DNA of 53,925 nucleotides from Bacteroidales bacterium. Lineage in GTDB: Bacteria; Bacteroidota; Bacteroidia; Bacteroidales; NBLH01. The position numbers and the translations under genes are program-made. Positions within the stretch are counted from its first letter, which is position 1, and every line of letters begins with the position of its first letter. This document shows, in pieces, positions 46,208 to 52,734 of this stretch. Where the stretch lies: the NCBI GenBank assembly GCA_016937695.1, contig JAFGWC010000052.1, forward strand, positions 1-53,925, written 5' to 3'. Below the pieces are notes generated by a model. The model was not told the origin of the DNA, ran no database searches, and saw only the letters and a list, made by a program, of their open reading frames with translations.

Positions 46208-47347
46208 TTATTTGTTTTTATTTATTTTAGCTCTTAATGTATAAAAAGAATATTTATCACTAATTTTTAAAAAATTATATTCTAAAATATCATCTGTTTT
46301 TAATCTGATGTCAATCATTCCTAAACCAGCTTCTTTGTTTGAGTCAATTTCAAAATTTAATAGTCTTTCGTTATAAAAATTATCTAAATCTTCATCACTA
46401 AGATTATTTATGTAAGTTAATTTTTCTATTAAAATAGGTATATTTTGGTTATTAATATAATTTCCGGTGTTTAAAATAAAGTTATCATCAGATTCGCTAA
46501 TGTAAAAAAGTCCGGCTTTCCCGTCTGGTGTTTCTTTATAATTATCGCCATGTTGTATAATGTTTTGAAACATTTCAACCATTGTATTATAAATTCGTTT
46601 TTTTAAATTTAGTTTACCAACCATTTGTTTTTCAATAATTGATAATAAATTCATTAAACTTTCTTGGTTAAAATAGCTGTTAAAGATAATAAGTACATTT
46701 TCATCATTCAACATTTTATGCAATGCATTAATATATTTAATAATGTTCGAATTTTGAGTAGAAATGACTTTTTTTGACTCTATTGAAGGAATTTCAGTAT
46801 GTAAGTAAAAATAAGAATATGAATTGTTATATTTTTCGAAACCATATAATAATTTATTTCCAGATTTTCTTGCCATATCAATTAATCCAAGTCCGGCACC
46901 ACCTTTATTAGAAATTTTTCCGTCAATTAATATTTTTTTATGATATTCTTTAAGCTCATCTTTACTTAAACTATTAACTTGTTCAATTTGAAAAGTTAAT
47001 TGGTCAATATTCTCATTTTCAATGAGATTACCAGTTGTTATAAAGTAATTATTATTTTCTTTTTTTAAAACAAAAACTCCATAATTTTCTTCCAATTCAA
47101 GATCAATATCTGCTTGGTGTTTTGTTATGTTTTGAAGGCCTTCAACCATTACATTATAAACCTTTCGTTTAATTGCACGTGGATCATCCTTTTTAACTAG
47201 ATTGCTTTCGGCAAGAGCAAGAATATTATCAGTAATATTAGCAGTAAAAGTTCCTCTGTAAATATAGTTAAGGTTATCTTTTTGCATTGCTTTAAATAGC
47301 TTGAAGATAAACCCTAAATTTTCTTTATTTGATAATTTATTACTCAT
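46208..47347 (-). CDS. Double-headed SiaB-like kinase (two DUF6272/GHKL domains fused)
   Basis: 379 residues, about twice the usual SiaB length of 180. Two homologous halves: residues 1-190 with RKVYNVMVEGLQNITKHQAD and GGAGLGLIDMARKSG, and residues 200-375 with KRIYNTMVEMFQNIIQHGDN and EAGLGMIDIRLKTDD. Each has the E-x3-N (N-box) and AGLG(L/M)ID (G1-like) elements of a GHKL ATP-binding fold, so neither half is visibly dead. It should phosphorylate the SiaC-like protein encoded one base downstream. Fusion suggests a built-in dimer or division of labour between halves. Confidence 0.82.
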   Translation of the reverse strand: MSNKLSNKENLGFIFKLFKAMQKDNLNYIYRGTFTANITDNILALAESNLVKKDDPRAIKRKVYNVMVEGLQNITKHQADIDLELEENYGVFVLKKENNNYFITTGNLIENENIDQLTFQIEQVNSLSKDELKEYHKKILIDGKISNKGGAGLGLIDMARKSGNKLLYGFEKYNNSYSYFYLHTEIPSIESKKVISTQNSNIIKYINALHKMLNDENVLIIFNSYFNQESLMNLLSIIEKQMVGKLNLKKRIYNTMVEMFQNIIQHGDNYKETPDGKAGLFYISESDDNFILNTGNYINNQNIPILIEKLTYINNLSDEDLDNFYNERLLNFEIDSNKEAGLGMIDIRLKTDDILEYNFLKISDKYSFYTLRAKINKNK

Positions 47348-48019: not shown

Positions 48020-48589
48020 ATGAAAAAAATTTTTTTAGTTAGCATTTTATCTTTAGCTATAGTAACTTTTACTAATGCGCAAATTGTATTTAATTCAGGT
48101 CAAACTCTTCAAAAAGGAGCATTTTCTGTTGGAATAAATCCTGCATGGGCAGATTTTGGAGATGGCGATTTTGCCTTATTCATGCATGGTGGTTACGGAC
48201 TTGGTCATAATTCTGATTTAGGTCTGAAACTAGGATTTGGTTGGGGAAATGAGACTTATTTCGGTATCGATTATGAGAAAACATTTTTATCGGGCAAACC
48301 TTCATTTTCGGCTACTATTGGTGGGCATTACTGGCACTATTTCGGTATAGATTTAGGTGGAACCGTAACATTTCCTATTCAAAACATTTACCTTTCTACA
48401 GGTTTAGATGCCGATATAGTTTTTGGCGAAGATGGCGCAGGCGATTTAGAAATGTATGTGCCAATGTGGTTACCAATTGAATTAGAATTTTATTTAAAGA
48501 AACATCTATCTCTTATTTTTGAAGCTGATATTAAACTTACAGATCATGCTTTTACAATTATAAACGGTGGCGTTTCAATTTATTTTTAA
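48020..48589 (+). CDS. Small outer-membrane beta-barrel protein
   Basis: 189 residues from the ATG at 48020; an in-frame TTG at 47993 would lengthen the signal peptide without benefit. The signal peptide ends at FTNAQ. The mature part has alternating hydrophobic strands with aromatic girdles (GQTLQKGAFSVGINPAWADF, DLGLKLGFGWGNETYFGIDY, HYWHYFGIDLGGTVTF) and ends in Tyr-Phe, the usual C-terminal Phe of Omp85 substrates. About eight strands are likely. Function unknown. Followed by a strong terminator. Confidence 0.8.
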   Translation: MKKIFLVSILSLAIVTFTNAQIVFNSGQTLQKGAFSVGINPAWADFGDGDFALFMHGGYGLGHNSDLGLKLGFGWGNETYFGIDYEKTFLSGKPSFSATIGGHYWHYFGIDLGGTVTFPIQNIYLSTGLDADIVFGEDGAGDLEMYVPMWLPIELEFYLKKHLSLIFEADIKLTDHAFTIINGGVSIYF

Positions 48590-48600
48590 TTAATACTTTA

Positions 48601-48633
48601 AAAAAAGTGCCGGCTTAGTCCGGCTTTTTTTTT
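48601..48633 (+). terminator. Terminator after the barrel gene
   Basis: GCCGG (48609-48613) pairs with CCGGC (48620-48624), flanked by A run and nine T. Confidence 0.88.
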
Positions 48634-48667
48634 ACTAACTAAATCTCTCATAATCAATAATATTATA

Positions 48668-49135
48668 ATGAAAAAACTTCTATTAATTGTCTTTACTTTT
48701 TTTATCGTACAAAACATTTTTTCGATAGAAATAAATGCAGATTTATTTAGTTTTGATGAAGAAAAATTTGAAAAGGAATTTGAAAATTTAAATAAACTTG
48801 AACAAATTGTAATCTTAAACCCTGAATTTTCTTTTAACGAATTAGTTGATATTAATCCAGATTTTTTGAATTTAAGTTTTGAAAAAAAATATTTCCCTCA
48901 AGAGATTAATTACACTGCCGAACCTGGAAATATTTCATCTTTTTGGTGGTCTTTTAGCTTTAGTTTAGTTGGATCATATACACTTTATGGTGCTGTTGCA
49001 GGACCAATTTCTGTTGGTGTTGTTTATCTTTCATCAAAAAAAGACAGAATTGAAACAAAAAAAGCTGTTTGGGGTTGCTTAACAGGTACAATTTTAGGTT
49101 TTGGTCTGAAATATGCTGTGCTTACATTTATGTAA
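48668..49135 (+). CDS. Exported or membrane protein, unknown function
   Basis: 155 residues. The N-terminal signal sequence (MKKLLLIVFTFFIVQNIFS) is followed by an acidic segment (about 20-80, FSFDEEKFEKEFENLNKLEQ) and a glycine-rich C-terminal pair of helices (about 95-120 and 132-153) separated by a basic loop KKDRIETKKAVW. The small-residue GAVAGPISVGVV and GCLTGTILGFG patterns suggest membrane packing. No family recognised. It heads a run of same-strand exported genes that includes the yidD-like gene. Confidence 0.65.
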   Translation: MKKLLLIVFTFFIVQNIFSIEINADLFSFDEEKFEKEFENLNKLEQIVILNPEFSFNELVDINPDFLNLSFEKKYFPQEINYTAEPGNISSFWWSFSFSLVGSYTLYGAVAGPISVGVVYLSSKKDRIETKKAVWGCLTGTILGFGLKYAVLTFM

Positions 49136-49274
49136 AAAATATGTTTTTAAAGAGAAAAGTTAATCTTAATTATTTTATATATAAATATCTTGTTAACAGA
49201 TATATATAAGGTTTTAATCATTAATTAAACACTTAAAACTTTCAGCTTAAATTACTAAAGTTAAAATTATTATA

Positions 49275-49952
49275 ATGAGAAAAATCAGTTTAATTTTTTT
49301 AATATTATTATTTGCAAATAACATATCTGCACAAGAATTTTATCGTTTTTCTGCAGAGTATTCTGTAAAATATAAAGAAAAAAATGGCACAGAAATGCTA
49401 AAATTAGGAAAAGTTTTTTACGATTTTAAGCAAAAACAAATTGTAATAAAAAATGGTTTTCCTGTTAAAGAAATTTTTGTTTATACAGATACTACTGTTT
49501 ATCAACTCAGAAACGATAGAGTTGTAAATAAAGAAAAAATTATTGCACCTGTTGAATTTTCAATATTTCATCTTGCTTTAAATGAGCAACTTAGAAATTA
49601 CGGATTAGATAAAGCCGGATATATTTTAGATACCGTTAAAAGAGATAAAGGATTAATTATTGCTCTTTGGAAACCTCCGGTTAATTTCCAAAATATTTTT
49701 GGCAATGTATTAGTTTCAACTAAGGAAAAGCAACTTTTCGGTATTGTATTTCTTAATACAAAAGGCGATATTGTTAGTAAACATTTTTTTAGAAATTATC
49801 AACAAATAAATGGTTTTTCATTTCCAACAGAAGTTGTTAGAATGAATTATATTGATGATTTTGAGAGTTATGAAACAACTACTTATAAAAAAATTATAAT
49901 TAATGATACTGAAAATAATGAGTATTACAATTATGATTTTCATAAAAAATAG
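49275..49952 (+). CDS. Secreted protein with LolA-like beta fold, unknown role
   Basis: 225 residues, signal peptide ending near NISAQ. The mature part is a run of amphipathic strands (FYRFSAEYSVKYKEKNGTEM, GKVFYDFKQKQIVIKNGFPV, EIFVYTDTTVYQLRNDRVV, and SFPTEVVRMNYIDDFESYET) that resembles LolA/LolB-like half-barrels, which bind lipid or lipoprotein chains. Assignment is by pattern only. The yidD-like gene starts 14 bases after its stop, and the genes probably share a transcript. Confidence 0.6.
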   Translation: MRKISLIFLILLFANNISAQEFYRFSAEYSVKYKEKNGTEMLKLGKVFYDFKQKQIVIKNGFPVKEIFVYTDTTVYQLRNDRVVNKEKIIAPVEFSIFHLALNEQLRNYGLDKAGYILDTVKRDKGLIIALWKPPVNFQNIFGNVLVSTKEKQLFGIVFLNTKGDIVSKHFFRNYQQINGFSFPTEVVRMNYIDDFESYETTTYKKIIINDTENNEYYNYDFHKK

Positions 49953-49966
49953 TTAAAAAATTTGCT

Positions 49967-50353
49967 TTGAAAAAAAATCTTTTGCTTTTCTTTTTATTCA
50001 TTTTTGTTAATAAAATTTGTGCTCAAACACAAAATGACATTAAATTATTTGAGAACATTTACAGTACTTACCAAGAAAAAGTTCATTATAATAATTTTAA
50101 AGATAGCCAAAACGAAATTGAGCAAATTACAGGAGTTTTTTTTAGTTTTTATAAAAAAATTCTATCATCTCAAGATGCAAATCATTGTGTTTTTTATCCT
50201 TCTTGTTCAGAGTATACTTTTCAGTCAATTAAAAAAAATGGAGTTATTGGCATTATTGATGGTATTGATAGATTATCGAGATGTAACAGATTAAGCCCCG
50301 AAAATTATAAATTATATAAAAATACTAATCTTTTTTACGATCCAGTTGATTAA
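49967..50353 (+). CDS. YidD-family protein with a signal peptide
   Basis: 128 residues, TTG start at 49967. An N-terminal signal peptide (MKKNLLLFFLFIFVNKICAQ) and a helical linker precede the YidD core (about 65-128): HCVFYPSCSEYTFQSIKKNG, RLSRCNRLSPENY and FYDPVD. All core cysteines are present. Ordinary YidD (about 70-85 residues) has no signal peptide, is a membrane-insertion factor on the cytoplasmic side, and lies by rnpA/rpmH. This copy should be periplasmic, so a different role is likely. Two bases separate it from the following TPR gene. Another frame is open across part of this gene but lacks these features. Confidence 0.85.
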   Translation: MKKNLLLFFLFIFVNKICAQTQNDIKLFENIYSTYQEKVHYNNFKDSQNEIEQITGVFFSFYKKILSSQDANHCVFYPSCSEYTFQSIKKNGVIGIIDGIDRLSRCNRLSPENYKLYKNTNLFYDPVD

Positions 50354-50355
50354 AT

Positions 50356-51207
50356 ATGATTAATAAAAACATTTATAAAATACTGATTATTAGCGTTTTA
50401 ATCATAGCTGTTAATTTGCAGTTATTTTCTCAAAACATACACGATTTGGACCATAGTTTGCAATTTGCAGACTATTTGTTTAAAACAGAACAATTTGATT
50501 TAGCATCTGAAGAATACGAAAGAATTGTCTTTTTAAAGCCTGATAATCAGCAAAATAAAATAAAATTGATACAGTCTTACAGGTTTTCAAAAAAATATGA
50601 TTTAGCTTTAAAAAAAATTGAATACTTTTTTGGTGAAAAACCCACAAATATTCCTGTTGATTTTGCCGAAGAATATGTTAAACTTCTTCTTATCACAAAT
50701 AAAAATGAAGACGCCTATAATTTTCTTGAGATAAACAATTCAATAAATCCTCAAAAAAGACAAAATTATCAATTAAGTTCGCTTTTATTGCAAAAAAAAT
50801 GGGATAAAGCGTTTGTTTATGCTCTGAAAAATCCTGTTATAAATAATGATAAAAATAATGCAGAATTGCATTTATTAGCATTTAAAACAAAAGAAGTTAA
50901 ATATAAAAAACCTTTTAATGCAGCTTTATTTTCAGCATTAATTCCCGGTTCTGGTAAAATTTACACTAAAAGATGGAAAGATGCAGTTATCTCGTTTTTA
51001 TTTGTTGGTTTAAATTCATGGCAATCGTATCGCGGTTTTAATAAAAATGGTTCTGAATCTGTTTACGGATGGGTATTTGCAGGATTTGCTTCAGGTTTTT
51101 ATGTAGGCAATATTTATGGTTCATATAAATCAGCAAAAAAATATAATAAAGAAATTGATGATGAAATATATTTTAAAACGGCTGAGCTTACTGTTAATAG
51201 TTTTTAA
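50356..51207 (+). CDS. TPR protein with C-terminal membrane region, yidD neighbour (copy A)
   Basis: 283 residues. The signal sequence ends near LFSQ. TPR-like helices (about 30-165, SLQFADYLFKTEQFDLASEE and YDLALKKIEYFF) are followed by a membrane part: SALIPGSGKIYTKRWKDAVI, a helix, and GFYVGNIYGSYKSAKKYNK. The IPGSGxxY motif is seen in small membrane proteins of the TM2/DUF5683 type. It starts two bases after the yidD-like gene and its 3' end overlaps copy B by 47 bases, so expression is coupled. Function unknown. Confidence 0.75.
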   Translation: MINKNIYKILIISVLIIAVNLQLFSQNIHDLDHSLQFADYLFKTEQFDLASEEYERIVFLKPDNQQNKIKLIQSYRFSKKYDLALKKIEYFFGEKPTNIPVDFAEEYVKLLLITNKNEDAYNFLEINNSINPQKRQNYQLSSLLLQKKWDKAFVYALKNPVINNDKNNAELHLLAFKTKEVKYKKPFNAALFSALIPGSGKIYTKRWKDAVISFLFVGLNSWQSYRGFNKNGSESVYGWVFAGFASGFYVGNIYGSYKSAKKYNKEIDDEIYFKTAELTVNSF

Positions 51208-52024
51208 ATTTATTCTTTTTTATAATGTTTCTGCGCAAAGCATTGACGAAACTATAAAATTTGCTGATAATCAGTATGGTGAGTTAAATTATAAACTTGC
51301 AATAAAGGAGTATCAAAGAGCACTTTTTTTTAGTAATGGAGATAAAATTGAATATTTATATAAGCAAATTGCAAACTCAAATTTCAATATTCATAATTAT
51401 GACAAAGCTGCATATTATTACGAATTAAGCTATAAAACATCATACAACGACAGTTTAAAAAACGAGCTTCTTTTAAAAAAAGCTTCGTGCTATATTTTAA
51501 ATGAAAATTATGATTTAGCTTTATTGGAATTAATTAATTTTTCTGATTCTTTAGATATTTATTTTGAGAATAGAAAAAACTTTTATTATGCTGTAATTTA
51601 TTTCGGCCTTGAAGATTTTGAAGTCTCGAAATCTTATTTTTTAAAAATATTTAATGACAAGCAATTACTTGAAAAACAGCAAATTGAATTGATTTTTGAT
51701 AAAAAAAAGAATTTTAATAATCCAAACCCGAAATTTGCAAAATTAATTAGCTTTATAGTTCCAGGAAGTGGGCAATTATATTCAGGAAACTTTAAAAATG
51801 GTTTAAATTCTTTAATATTAACAAGTGGAATAGCAGTTTTGGGCATTTATATTGCACAATATTATAGCGTTTTTGATGCAATTTTATCAACTGCACCTTG
51901 GTTTTTCAGATATTATGTTGGTGGAGCTCAAAATTCAAAAAAAATAGCCCTTAATAAAAGGGCTAAAAGAAGAGATAAAACTTACAAAAAAATATTAAAT
52001 ATTATAAAAACCTCTAATAATTAA
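51161..52024 (+). CDS. TPR protein with C-terminal membrane region, yidD neighbour (copy B)
   Basis: 287 residues from the ATG at 51161 (MKYILKRLSLLLIVFKFILF); the ATG at 51158 adds one Met, and one at 51116 would put a polar stretch ahead of the signal peptide. Signal cleavage near NVSAQ. TPR-like helices (TIKFADNQYGELNYKLAIKE) and SFIVPGSGQLYSGNFKNGLN, then YYVGGAQNSKKIALNKR, match copy A in order, so the two are paralogues. It overlaps copy A by 47 bases in a different frame. Its 3' end also encodes, on the opposite strand, the terminator of the convergent gene. Confidence 0.75.
   Translation: MKYILKRLSLLLIVFKFILFYNVSAQSIDETIKFADNQYGELNYKLAIKEYQRALFFSNGDKIEYLYKQIANSNFNIHNYDKAAYYYELSYKTSYNDSLKNELLLKKASCYILNENYDLALLELINFSDSLDIYFENRKNFYYAVIYFGLEDFEVSKSYFLKIFNDKQLLEKQQIELIFDKKKNFNNPNPKFAKLISFIVPGSGQLYSGNFKNGLNSLILTSGIAVLGIYIAQYYSVFDAILSTAPWFFRYYVGGAQNSKKIALNKRAKRRDKTYKKILNIIKTSNN
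51937..51965 (-). terminator. Terminator of the 52033 gene, inside the convergent CDS
   Basis: On the minus strand TAGCCCTT pairs with AAGGGCTA across a five-base loop, then eight T. It lies within codons of copy B (about residues 259-268), about 70 bases past the stop of the minus-strand gene. Confidence 0.85.
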
Positions 52025-52032
52025 AATTAATT

Positions 52033-52734
52033 TTATTTTGTAATTTTTGTTATTAATGAAGAAGATTCAAGATTGCCTTTTTTATCGTAATTTTCAGTTT
52101 TAACAGCACCAACTCCTTTAGAAAACCATTGTTTTGATGAAGATTTAACTTTGATGAACCCAATTTTTGATTCTGCATCGTAAGATATTTTCACGCAATC
52201 AAAAGTTCCTGCAGTGGTTGTTATTTTTTCAAAACCATCAACTTTTCTATTTGTTATATCAACAGTAATTGAAAAAATCTTAATTCCGGAATTTTTTACA
52301 CTTGCTGTAACTTTTCCATTATTAAGCATTTGACCTGCTTGTAAGTTTGCAGGAATTGTTAAGGCATCTGCATCAACATCAACTTGCATTCCTTGATAAG
52401 CGCTCATCTGTTCTTGATTTAAATATGAATCCATATTTATATAAAATTCACCATTTTGACATTTAATAGTAAATTCACTTGAGTTAACATTTTCAGATTC
52501 ATCAGATACTATTTCATTTTTAACTCTAATTGTTGTCACGCCTGCACTCTCTGTATTCTCAAGTACTGTTTGTTTTAATACTGATGACTGATTGTTTTTC
52601 TTATCATAACTTGTTGTTTCTACAATAGTTCCTTTTTCATGTGGAAAATATAACTCGCAATCCTGAGCTTTTATATTGTTGCTTATTATTAACGATGTAG
52701 TAAATACCAATAAATAAAAAATTGATTTTTTCAT
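52033..52734 (-). CDS. Secreted DUF3108/TapB-like protein
   Basis: 233 residues, signal peptide ending near NIKAQ. Beta-rich mature part: CELYFPHEKGTIVETTSYDK, a central AGQMLNNGKVTA strand pair and FEKITTTAGTFDCVKISYDA followed by KQWFSKGVGAVKTENYDKKG. The TxAGTFxCxK and WFSKGVGxVKxE patterns are those of DUF3108-like exported proteins, called TapB family in some annotations. Role unknown. Only eight bases separate its stop from the stop of the convergent TPR gene. A -7 box lies at 52797-52804. Confidence 0.72.
   Translation of the reverse strand: MKKSIFYLLVFTTSLIISNNIKAQDCELYFPHEKGTIVETTSYDKKNNQSSVLKQTVLENTESAGVTTIRVKNEIVSDESENVNSSEFTIKCQNGEFYINMDSYLNQEQMSAYQGMQVDVDADALTIPANLQAGQMLNNGKVTASVKNSGIKIFSITVDITNRKVDGFEKITTTAGTFDCVKISYDAESKIGFIKVKSSSKQWFSKGVGAVKTENYDKKGNLESSSLITKITK

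Follow-up and report, generated by a model that had tools for sequence, protein, structure and literature searches.

An exported YidD paralogue and its two TPR-like partners across Bacteroidota

Introduction

Ordinary YidD acts from the cytoplasmic side. Excerpts of two published articles present it as an aid to YidC during insertion into the inner membrane, and count it among the contacts of SecYEG (PMC3573977, PMC8082313). What, then, might a YidD do that carries a signal peptide? The question is raised by a stretch of 53,925 nucleotides from a Bacteroidales bacterium (assembly GCA_016937695.1, contig JAFGWC010000052.1, positions 1 to 53,925 of the forward strand; this whole stretch is the window below), part of a 3.95-Mb genome assembled into 159 contigs. 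In it a yidD homologue, whose product we call YidDx as the exported form of YidD, stands in a row with four other genes, sml, lolx, tprA and tprB, and an original prediction made from the DNA letters had proposed that the five serve an undescribed pathway of envelope assembly or maintenance. The separate place of YidDx in the family tree, its signal peptide, the conserved gene order, a co-occurrence that does not need adjacency and several natural fusions are, taken as a whole, best explained on balance by a periplasm-facing YidD complex that handles hydrophobic clients.

Results

The YidDx protein

The five genes are all open at the place claimed for them, and are arranged as follows.

48668 to 49135, forward strand: sml, small exported protein of 155 amino acids with a signal peptide and two C-terminal hydrophobic segments
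49275 to 49952, forward strand: lolx, exported protein of 225 amino acids with a LolA-superfamily fold (predicted local distance difference test, pLDDT, 94 for the model; Foldseek match to 3buu, E 4.5e-10)
49967 to 50353, forward strand: yidDx, exported YidD of 128 amino acids with a TTG start (PF01809, E 1.2e-15)
50135 to 50308, forward strand: YidD domain within yidDx, with C74, C80 and C106 and a DRLxRC motif at D101-C106
50356 to 51207, forward strand: tprA, exported protein of 283 amino acids, like tetratricopeptide repeat (TPR) proteins, with a C-terminal PGSGKxY hairpin (TM2/DUF5683-like)
51161 to 52024, forward strand: tprB, paralogue of tprA, 287 amino acids, with a PGSGQLY hairpin and an ATG start

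The YidD domain of the window YidDx spans residues 57-114 and scores 57.5 bits against PF01809, for which the curated cut-off is 27. It is preceded by a predicted signal peptide (residues 1-19, with Gln at position +1) and a linker, and the sequence, which begins at TTG, contains no in-frame Met. The three cysteines of the YidD core, C74, C80 and C106, are all present and are invariant in 24 of 24 aligned sequences; in a larger alignment of 103 rows C74 and C80 are still invariant, and C106 is missing from both the invariant and the 90% list. A YidD homologue with a signal peptide, parted from tprA by two bases (50354-50355), is thus present as had been proposed.

We compared 126 YidDx sequences with 33 ordinary YidD sequences of the same order (29 from 30 loci and four more), choosing the starts alike in both groups; the YidD rows number 167, one of which lacks a recognisable core. 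A signal-peptide rule that places Gln at +1 fits 120 of the 126 YidDx and only 1 of the 33 ordinary proteins, and the latter count stays at 1 even when any start is allowed. The two groups also differ in the number of residues ahead of the first domain cysteine (median 77 in YidDx versus 30), in a DRLxRC-type motif (99/126 versus 1/33), in an S.Q motif before the first Cys (100/126 versus 0/33) and in the C-terminal GxDPVP motif, which is found in none of the 126 YidDx and in all 33 ordinary YidD. In an unrooted tree of 105 rows and 70 columns (64 of 125 YidDx, the 33 ordinary YidD and eight other paralogues), the YidDx sequences make up one side of a branch with a support of 99/96, which was found in 100% of 200 bootstrap trees. 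At the sequence level the tree shows YidDx to be one separate group, the age of which is not readable from such a short, unrooted alignment.

The host genome also carries an ordinary yidD (contig C147, 28620-28814), which scores 103 bits, compared with 58 bits for the exported one, and whose product of 90 residues has the ordinary features. The separate canonical yidD expected by the original prediction therefore exists; its expected position near rnpA or rpmH was not borne out, no gene resembling either being seen by eye in the surrounding 11 kb (L160). Elsewhere, ordinary yidD adjoins the ribonuclease P protein gene in two loci (L026 and L031). Eight genomes of our phylum-wide sample hold two YidD and lack a tprA match of 49 bits; several of their extra copies are long-branched, and these copies fall outside the YidDx group in the tree. 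As a separate observation, four loci (L179-L182, in genomes G354, G173, G232 and G243) encode a divergent YidD paralogue in which a signal peptide is not obvious and which forms a group of four with a support of 100/100. A response-regulator-like gene lies near it in L180, L181 and L182; the one in L180 matches Pfam Response_reg with an E value of 4.9e-6, under the family cut-off.

TprA and TprB

TprA and TprB are paralogues: their 297 aligned positions are 25% identical, with an E value of 8.5e-10 against a small local database. Their genes overlap by 47 bases; for tprB a longer alternative frame opens at 51116. A signal peptide and a TPR-like part are found in both proteins, as is a P-G-S-G-[KQ]-x-Y hairpin close to the C-terminal end. 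The two overlapping TPR/membrane paralogues of the original prediction are therefore recognisable, if with weak TPR and hairpin scores in the window itself, where both proteins reach only 16.8 bits with DUF5683 (cut-off 26.7) and neither matches the TM2 profile up to an E value of 1. Among 20 aligned TprA members, four match TM2 and three DUF5683 at E <= 0.01, and several TPR-type families are matched by one or two members each. The window TprB has one clear hydrophobic segment, and between one and four follow the signal peptide in the fusion proteins described below. The hairpins of TprA and TprB are likely to anchor in the membrane.

Natural fusions

Natural fusions join YidDx to its neighbours in four genomes, namely TprB-YidDx (L097), YidDx-TprA (L059 and L144) and YidDx-TprA hairpin-TprB (L154), although single cases among them may include assembly errors. 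The L154 protein is a single chain of 454 residues that combines YidD, a TprA-type hairpin and a TprB-type TPR part and hairpin, and its genome also holds an unfused module (L153). In the three fusions that begin with YidDx, the YidD part lies directly behind the signal peptide, and one signal peptide serves YidD and the rest of the chain; these fusions therefore place YidD on the exported side. In the TprB-YidDx protein no second signal peptide precedes the YidD part. We argue from the four fusions that YidDx, TprA and TprB very probably form one complex.

Conserved neighbourhood

The same genes recur in a set of 80 named tprA loci (L063-L142), the best 80 of 324. Counting yidDx, tprB and lolx when on the same strand within 2.6 kb of tprA, and sml within 4 kb, we found yidDx in 70 of the 80 loci, tprB in 72, lolx in 63, sml in 53 and all five genes in 50. 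By title, these loci come from Bacteroidales, Flavobacteriales, Chitinophagales, Saprospiraceae, Cytophagales and Prolixibacteraceae, with one from KSB1 (L142); the labels Gammaproteobacteria (L070), Rickettsiales (L134) and Chlorobiota (L077) in titles of metagenome-assembled genomes were not trusted. Cultured organisms that carry the module are Jiulongibacter sediminis (L123), Lacihabitans soyangensis (L109) and Maribellus maritimus (L110). Ten of the loci lack an adjacent yidDx. One of these is the TprB-YidDx fusion, and for seven of the other nine the genome holds a YidDx-type match elsewhere (76 to 137 bits, reaching the N-terminal part; partial in G448).

The genes are tightly packed. 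With starts assigned by an in-house rule and only pairs within -200 to 300 bases considered, the median gap is -4 bases between yidDx and tprA (116 pairs), -38 between tprA and tprB (93 pairs) and -44 between lolx and yidDx (74 pairs), the last being at most 20 bases in 73 of the 74 pairs. One genome, G035 (L025 and L143; GC-rich by eye), has an odd order label and was considered as a possible contaminant; it was kept, with lolx and yidDx on one contig and tprA and tprB on another.

Co-occurrence across genomes

We next asked how tprA is distributed relative to a second YidD, in cross-tables compiled by hand. In a sample of the order comprising 149 genomes, of which 143 have YidD, tprA is found in 33. 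At least two YidD are present in 30 of these 33 genomes versus 2 of the 116 without tprA (Fisher p 1e-25, uncorrected for kinship, with most genomes from different families). Of the two exceptions without tprA, one (G004, L018) has its yidDx cut by the contig end, and the other (G116) has two overlapping pieces of an ordinary YidD, one of them at a contig end. In a sample of the phylum (296 genomes, 294 with YidD), at least two YidD are found in 33 of 33 genomes with tprA versus 8 of 263 without it, at a tprA threshold of at least 49 bits that was set after seeing the list (the next genome scores 36 bits). In four genomes (G036, G057, G077 and G104) yidDx and tprA are on separate contigs, with 5 to 7.5 kb around tprA free of yidDx; the link between the two genes is therefore independent of adjacency.

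LolX and sml

The predicted LolX model is confident and shows the half-barrel fold. Its best structural matches belong to the LolA superfamily, with Z scores of 15.9 for a DUF1329 protein, 15.6 for Porphyromonas gingivalis LolA3 and 15.1 for P. gingivalis LolB. The window LolX has no Pfam match up to an E value of 1, and so none to LolA (PF03548); among 75 aligned members, eight match LolA_like and eight match DUF4292, and the best match of a LolX profile to PDB sequences has an E value of 0.05. The LolA-like protein of the original prediction is thus upheld by the model (Z 15-16) and by those eight relatives. The ordinary LolA of the host genome, with a PF03548 match, is a separate gene on contig C33, so LolX is an extra. 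The small exported membrane protein predicted upstream corresponds to sml. Elsewhere, small exported proteins near the core contain a TM2 domain (E 2e-14 in L024, 1.5e-15 in L153 and 2.9e-19 in L137).

In the phylum sample, lolx was seen in only 3 of 29 loci. We also searched for LolX in 29 of that sample's 33 tprA genomes, chosen as distant genomes with a second YidD in which lolx was not seen beside the core, leaving out four in which lolx adjoins yidDx (G000, G338, G261 and G284). It was found in 0 of 29, in a search that had no positive control and that a very divergent LolX could escape. The core is therefore probably YidDx-TprA-TprB, and LolX and sml are best seen as additions to it. An obligatory five-gene unit was rejected on these two counts of lolx and LolX, and sml too is near tprA in only part of the named loci (53 of 80); of the five-gene order that the original prediction expected to be conserved, a neighbourhood kept over Bacteroidota stands and a fixed five-gene system does not.

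Other genes around the module

Further features lie upstream of the module in the window.

48020 to 48589, forward strand: upstream exported protein, barrel-like by eye
48609 to 48634, forward strand: terminator-like hairpin (48609-48624) followed by a T-run, which parts the module from the upstream barrel-like gene

Between 47900 and 52900, five terminator-like sites were counted on both strands, versus 1.1 expected in shuffles. The upstream protein had no match in a Pfam search; a homologue precedes the module in L004, from the same genus, and in L008, and we place the protein probably outside the core. On the reverse strand, positions 52033-52734, immediately downstream of the module, encode a DUF3108-like exported protein (E 8.9e-55), and positions 46208-47347 encode a protein of 379 residues with two DUF6272 stretches (E 2.1e-67).

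In other genomes, a further exported and partly TPR-like protein, here 'tprC', follows tprB in 28 loci, on the strand of the core in 23 of them. It overlaps tprB by 4 bases in L071 (2757-3632), L074, L077, L080, L088, L110, L129 and L136. It does not stand beside the module in the window, and the rest of the host genome was not searched for it. In many loci of families outside the window's class (L036-L062), an acyl-CoA dehydrogenase gene lies near the core (20 loci; checked against Pfam in L045), as does a small conserved protein of about 142 amino acids (18 loci). Finally, lipoprotein-like proteins are encoded upstream of yidDx in L112 (4845-5267; PEGA domain, E 8.3e-8), L059 and L061, the last two being alike by eye.

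Discussion

A proposed mechanism

The reading that we favour for the window, a periplasm-facing complex, can be set out as follows. One YidD copy would have gained a signal peptide and a linker and become a fixed partner of TprA and TprB. The latter would probably hold their glycine-rich C-terminal hairpins in the inner membrane and their TPR parts in the periplasm, where they may scaffold YidDx at the periplasmic surface and receive clients. YidDx itself may bind or chaperone a hydrophobic stretch or an acyl group of the client at the outer leaflet, mirroring the job of ordinary YidD. Where LolX is present, its LolA-type groove could receive the hydrophobic part, which LolX would then ferry through the periplasm, and sml and the TM2 proteins may be further membrane subunits. 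Such a specific client-handling role of the YidDx complex is put forward tentatively. With similar reserve, it is possible that a YidD group working from the periplasmic side supplies the catalysis or the client binding of a dedicated envelope machine, made up of YidDx, TprA and TprB and joined in certain lineages by LolX and TM2 proteins; hydrophobic clients would then have a second, Sec-distal route by which to enter or leave the inner membrane. In broader terms, YidDx, TprA and TprB together probably contribute to building the cell envelope or to maintaining it. Of the undescribed envelope pathway in the original prediction, the exported YidD is now tied to both TPR proteins by fusions, and we infer the assembly or maintenance role. 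The prediction had named the lack of a conserved neighbourhood, the lack of a second yidD or evidence against an exported N-terminus as grounds for abandoning it; none of the three was encountered.

Several observations weigh against this reading. Six of the 126 YidDx (L016, L131, two in L114, L142 and L041) do not fit the signal-peptide rule, and the YidDx profile gives six of the eight other paralogues a better score than the ordinary profile does. Two of the nine checked named loci belong to genomes with only an ordinary-like YidD (G450 and G451; 61 and 55 bits), in three members of the order sample (G037, G045 and G070) tprA occurs with no second YidD, and LolX was not found in the distant genomes described above. 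In the window, the TPR repeats score poorly by profile (E 0.64 and 0.023), and the C-terminal hairpin of TprA falls under the hydropathy threshold. In L097, one segment between the TPR and YidD parts passes that threshold (2.04; the next are 1.15, 1.15 and 0.96), so that this fusion shows association and not the side of the membrane. Finally, the predicted YidDx model (pLDDT 85) has no Foldseek match in the PDB at E <= 0.001, its best Z score in VIA-align comparisons over 36 chains is only 2.5, and profile searches of PDB sequences returned nothing at E 1 and two chance-level rows at E 7-8. The mechanism is therefore not readable from the fold.

Alternative explanations

Among other explanations, the one that survives best is a specialised lipid or lipoprotein route, in which LolX is the carrier and is loaded at the inner membrane by YidDx-TprA-TprB, a counterpart of LolCDE-LolA that would serve one particular lipoprotein or surface lipid. 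The fold of LolX, near P. gingivalis LolA3 and LolB, would suit such a carrier, as would the frequency of lolx near tprA in the named loci, its usual overlap with yidDx and the fact that LolX is extra to the ordinary LolA of the genome. LolA2/LolB2 and LolA3 are thought to hold special jobs, according to excerpts of two papers (PMC11885536, PMC13103446). Some lineages also have ABC-type (ATP-binding cassette) genes nearby: a MacB/FtsX-like permease adjoining yidDx (L021, 1895-3157), an ABC ATPase and a UPF0014 permease ahead of yidDx (L013, 31-1469) and an ABC ATPase near tprA (L149, 4613-5281). However, the cluster of ABC-type ATPases, found near the module in nine loci, is on the module's strand in only two of them, so no transporter is a constant partner, and the 29 distant genomes keep tprA and a second YidD with no LolX detected. 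As an account of the whole mechanism, the LolA or lipid-carrier idea is thus unlikely.

Less probable still is a periplasmic helper for the assembly of outer-membrane proteins or lipoproteins, the TPR proteins recruiting clients and YidDx shielding hydrophobic stretches en route. Exported TPR-like proteins, TM2 proteins, the PEGA-domain protein of L112 and the barrel-like protein are all found near the module in some lineages, but none of these neighbours is constant, and no Bam- or Tam-like genes were noticed by eye among the recurrent neighbours, although no search was aimed at such genes. We give little credence to a module that assists type IX secretion or gliding, in favour of which a stand-alone yidDx in L007 (1495-2956) adjoins a PorP/SprF gene (PF11751, E 2.7e-50). 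Type IX tail domains are present in all 33 tprA genomes of the order sample, but they occur in 143 of its 149 genomes, 110 of these without tprA, so type IX secretion can do without the module, and the presence of the domain says nothing either way.

A plain YidD duplicate, whose N-terminus is a mere membrane anchor and which helps YidC from the cytoplasmic side, is highly improbable. It would agree with the NCBIfam YidD equivalog model TIGR00278, which accepts the window YidDx (50.8 bits against a cut-off of 40), with the hydrophobic N-terminus that ordinary YidD also has and with the unsure count of membrane passes ahead of YidD in the TprB-YidDx fusion; against it stand the fit of nearly all YidDx, and of only one ordinary YidD, to the signal-peptide rule with Gln at +1 and the single signal peptide that serves YidD and the rest in the three YidDx-first fusions. 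A secreted, membrane-active protein directed at other cells, recalling the former name of the family as a haemolytic domain and the Bacillus homologue reported, in an excerpt of one paper, to lyse cells (PMC3573977), can practically be dismissed, since phylum-wide conservation, two membrane-type TPR partners and fusions to them are unlike a released toxin.

Significance and comparison with known systems

We return to the favoured periplasm-facing YidDx complex. The module is real, widespread and apparently unnamed, a variant of the YidD family with fixed partners. No description of an exported YidD or of this module was found in titles and abstract starts of the open-licence PMC literature, and the term YidD is absent from the excerpts of both Lol papers searched (PMC11885536, PMC13103446). 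YidD is very widespread, its mechanism is obscure and it had no match among solved structures in these searches; a YidD group that has moved across the membrane and become fused to partners names its own likely binding partners, and the single-chain natural fusion is suited to structure work. Since TIGR00278 takes the exported paralogue of the window for an ordinary YidD, annotation probably conceals proteins of this kind. The module adds an apparently undescribed envelope component to the Bacteroidota, in which the pathways for lipoproteins and the outer membrane are now being worked out.

Compared with the known YidD family (PF01809, TIGR00278), YidDx shares the domain over nearly its whole length and the three conserved cysteines. 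It differs from ordinary YidD in its signal peptide, its longer linker, its separate group in the tree and the lack of a GxDPVP tail, and its DRLxRC motif replaces the basic-R/H-hydrophobic-x-x-C type of ordinary YidD. The partners differ as well, being tprA and tprB for yidDx and, in the two loci mentioned, the ribonuclease P protein gene for ordinary yidD. LolX resembles P. gingivalis LolA3 (PDB 9tp6) over 180 aligned residues with a root-mean-square deviation of 3.1, and both proteins are exported, but their identity is 10% and LolA3 was not listed by the profile search of PDB sequences; the other close relative of LolX is LolA_like (PF17131). For LolA3 of Bacteroidota, a separate and unknown function is suggested in an excerpt of one paper (PMC13103446), and LolA2/LolB2 are tied to flexirubin loci in that of another (PMC11885536). 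Finally, the P-G-x-G-x-x-Y hairpin of the TM2 (PF05154) and DUF5683 (PF18935) families is likewise found at the C-terminus of TprA and TprB; the TprA and TprB of the window, however, score below the DUF5683 cut-off and have the hairpin joined to exported TPR-like parts.

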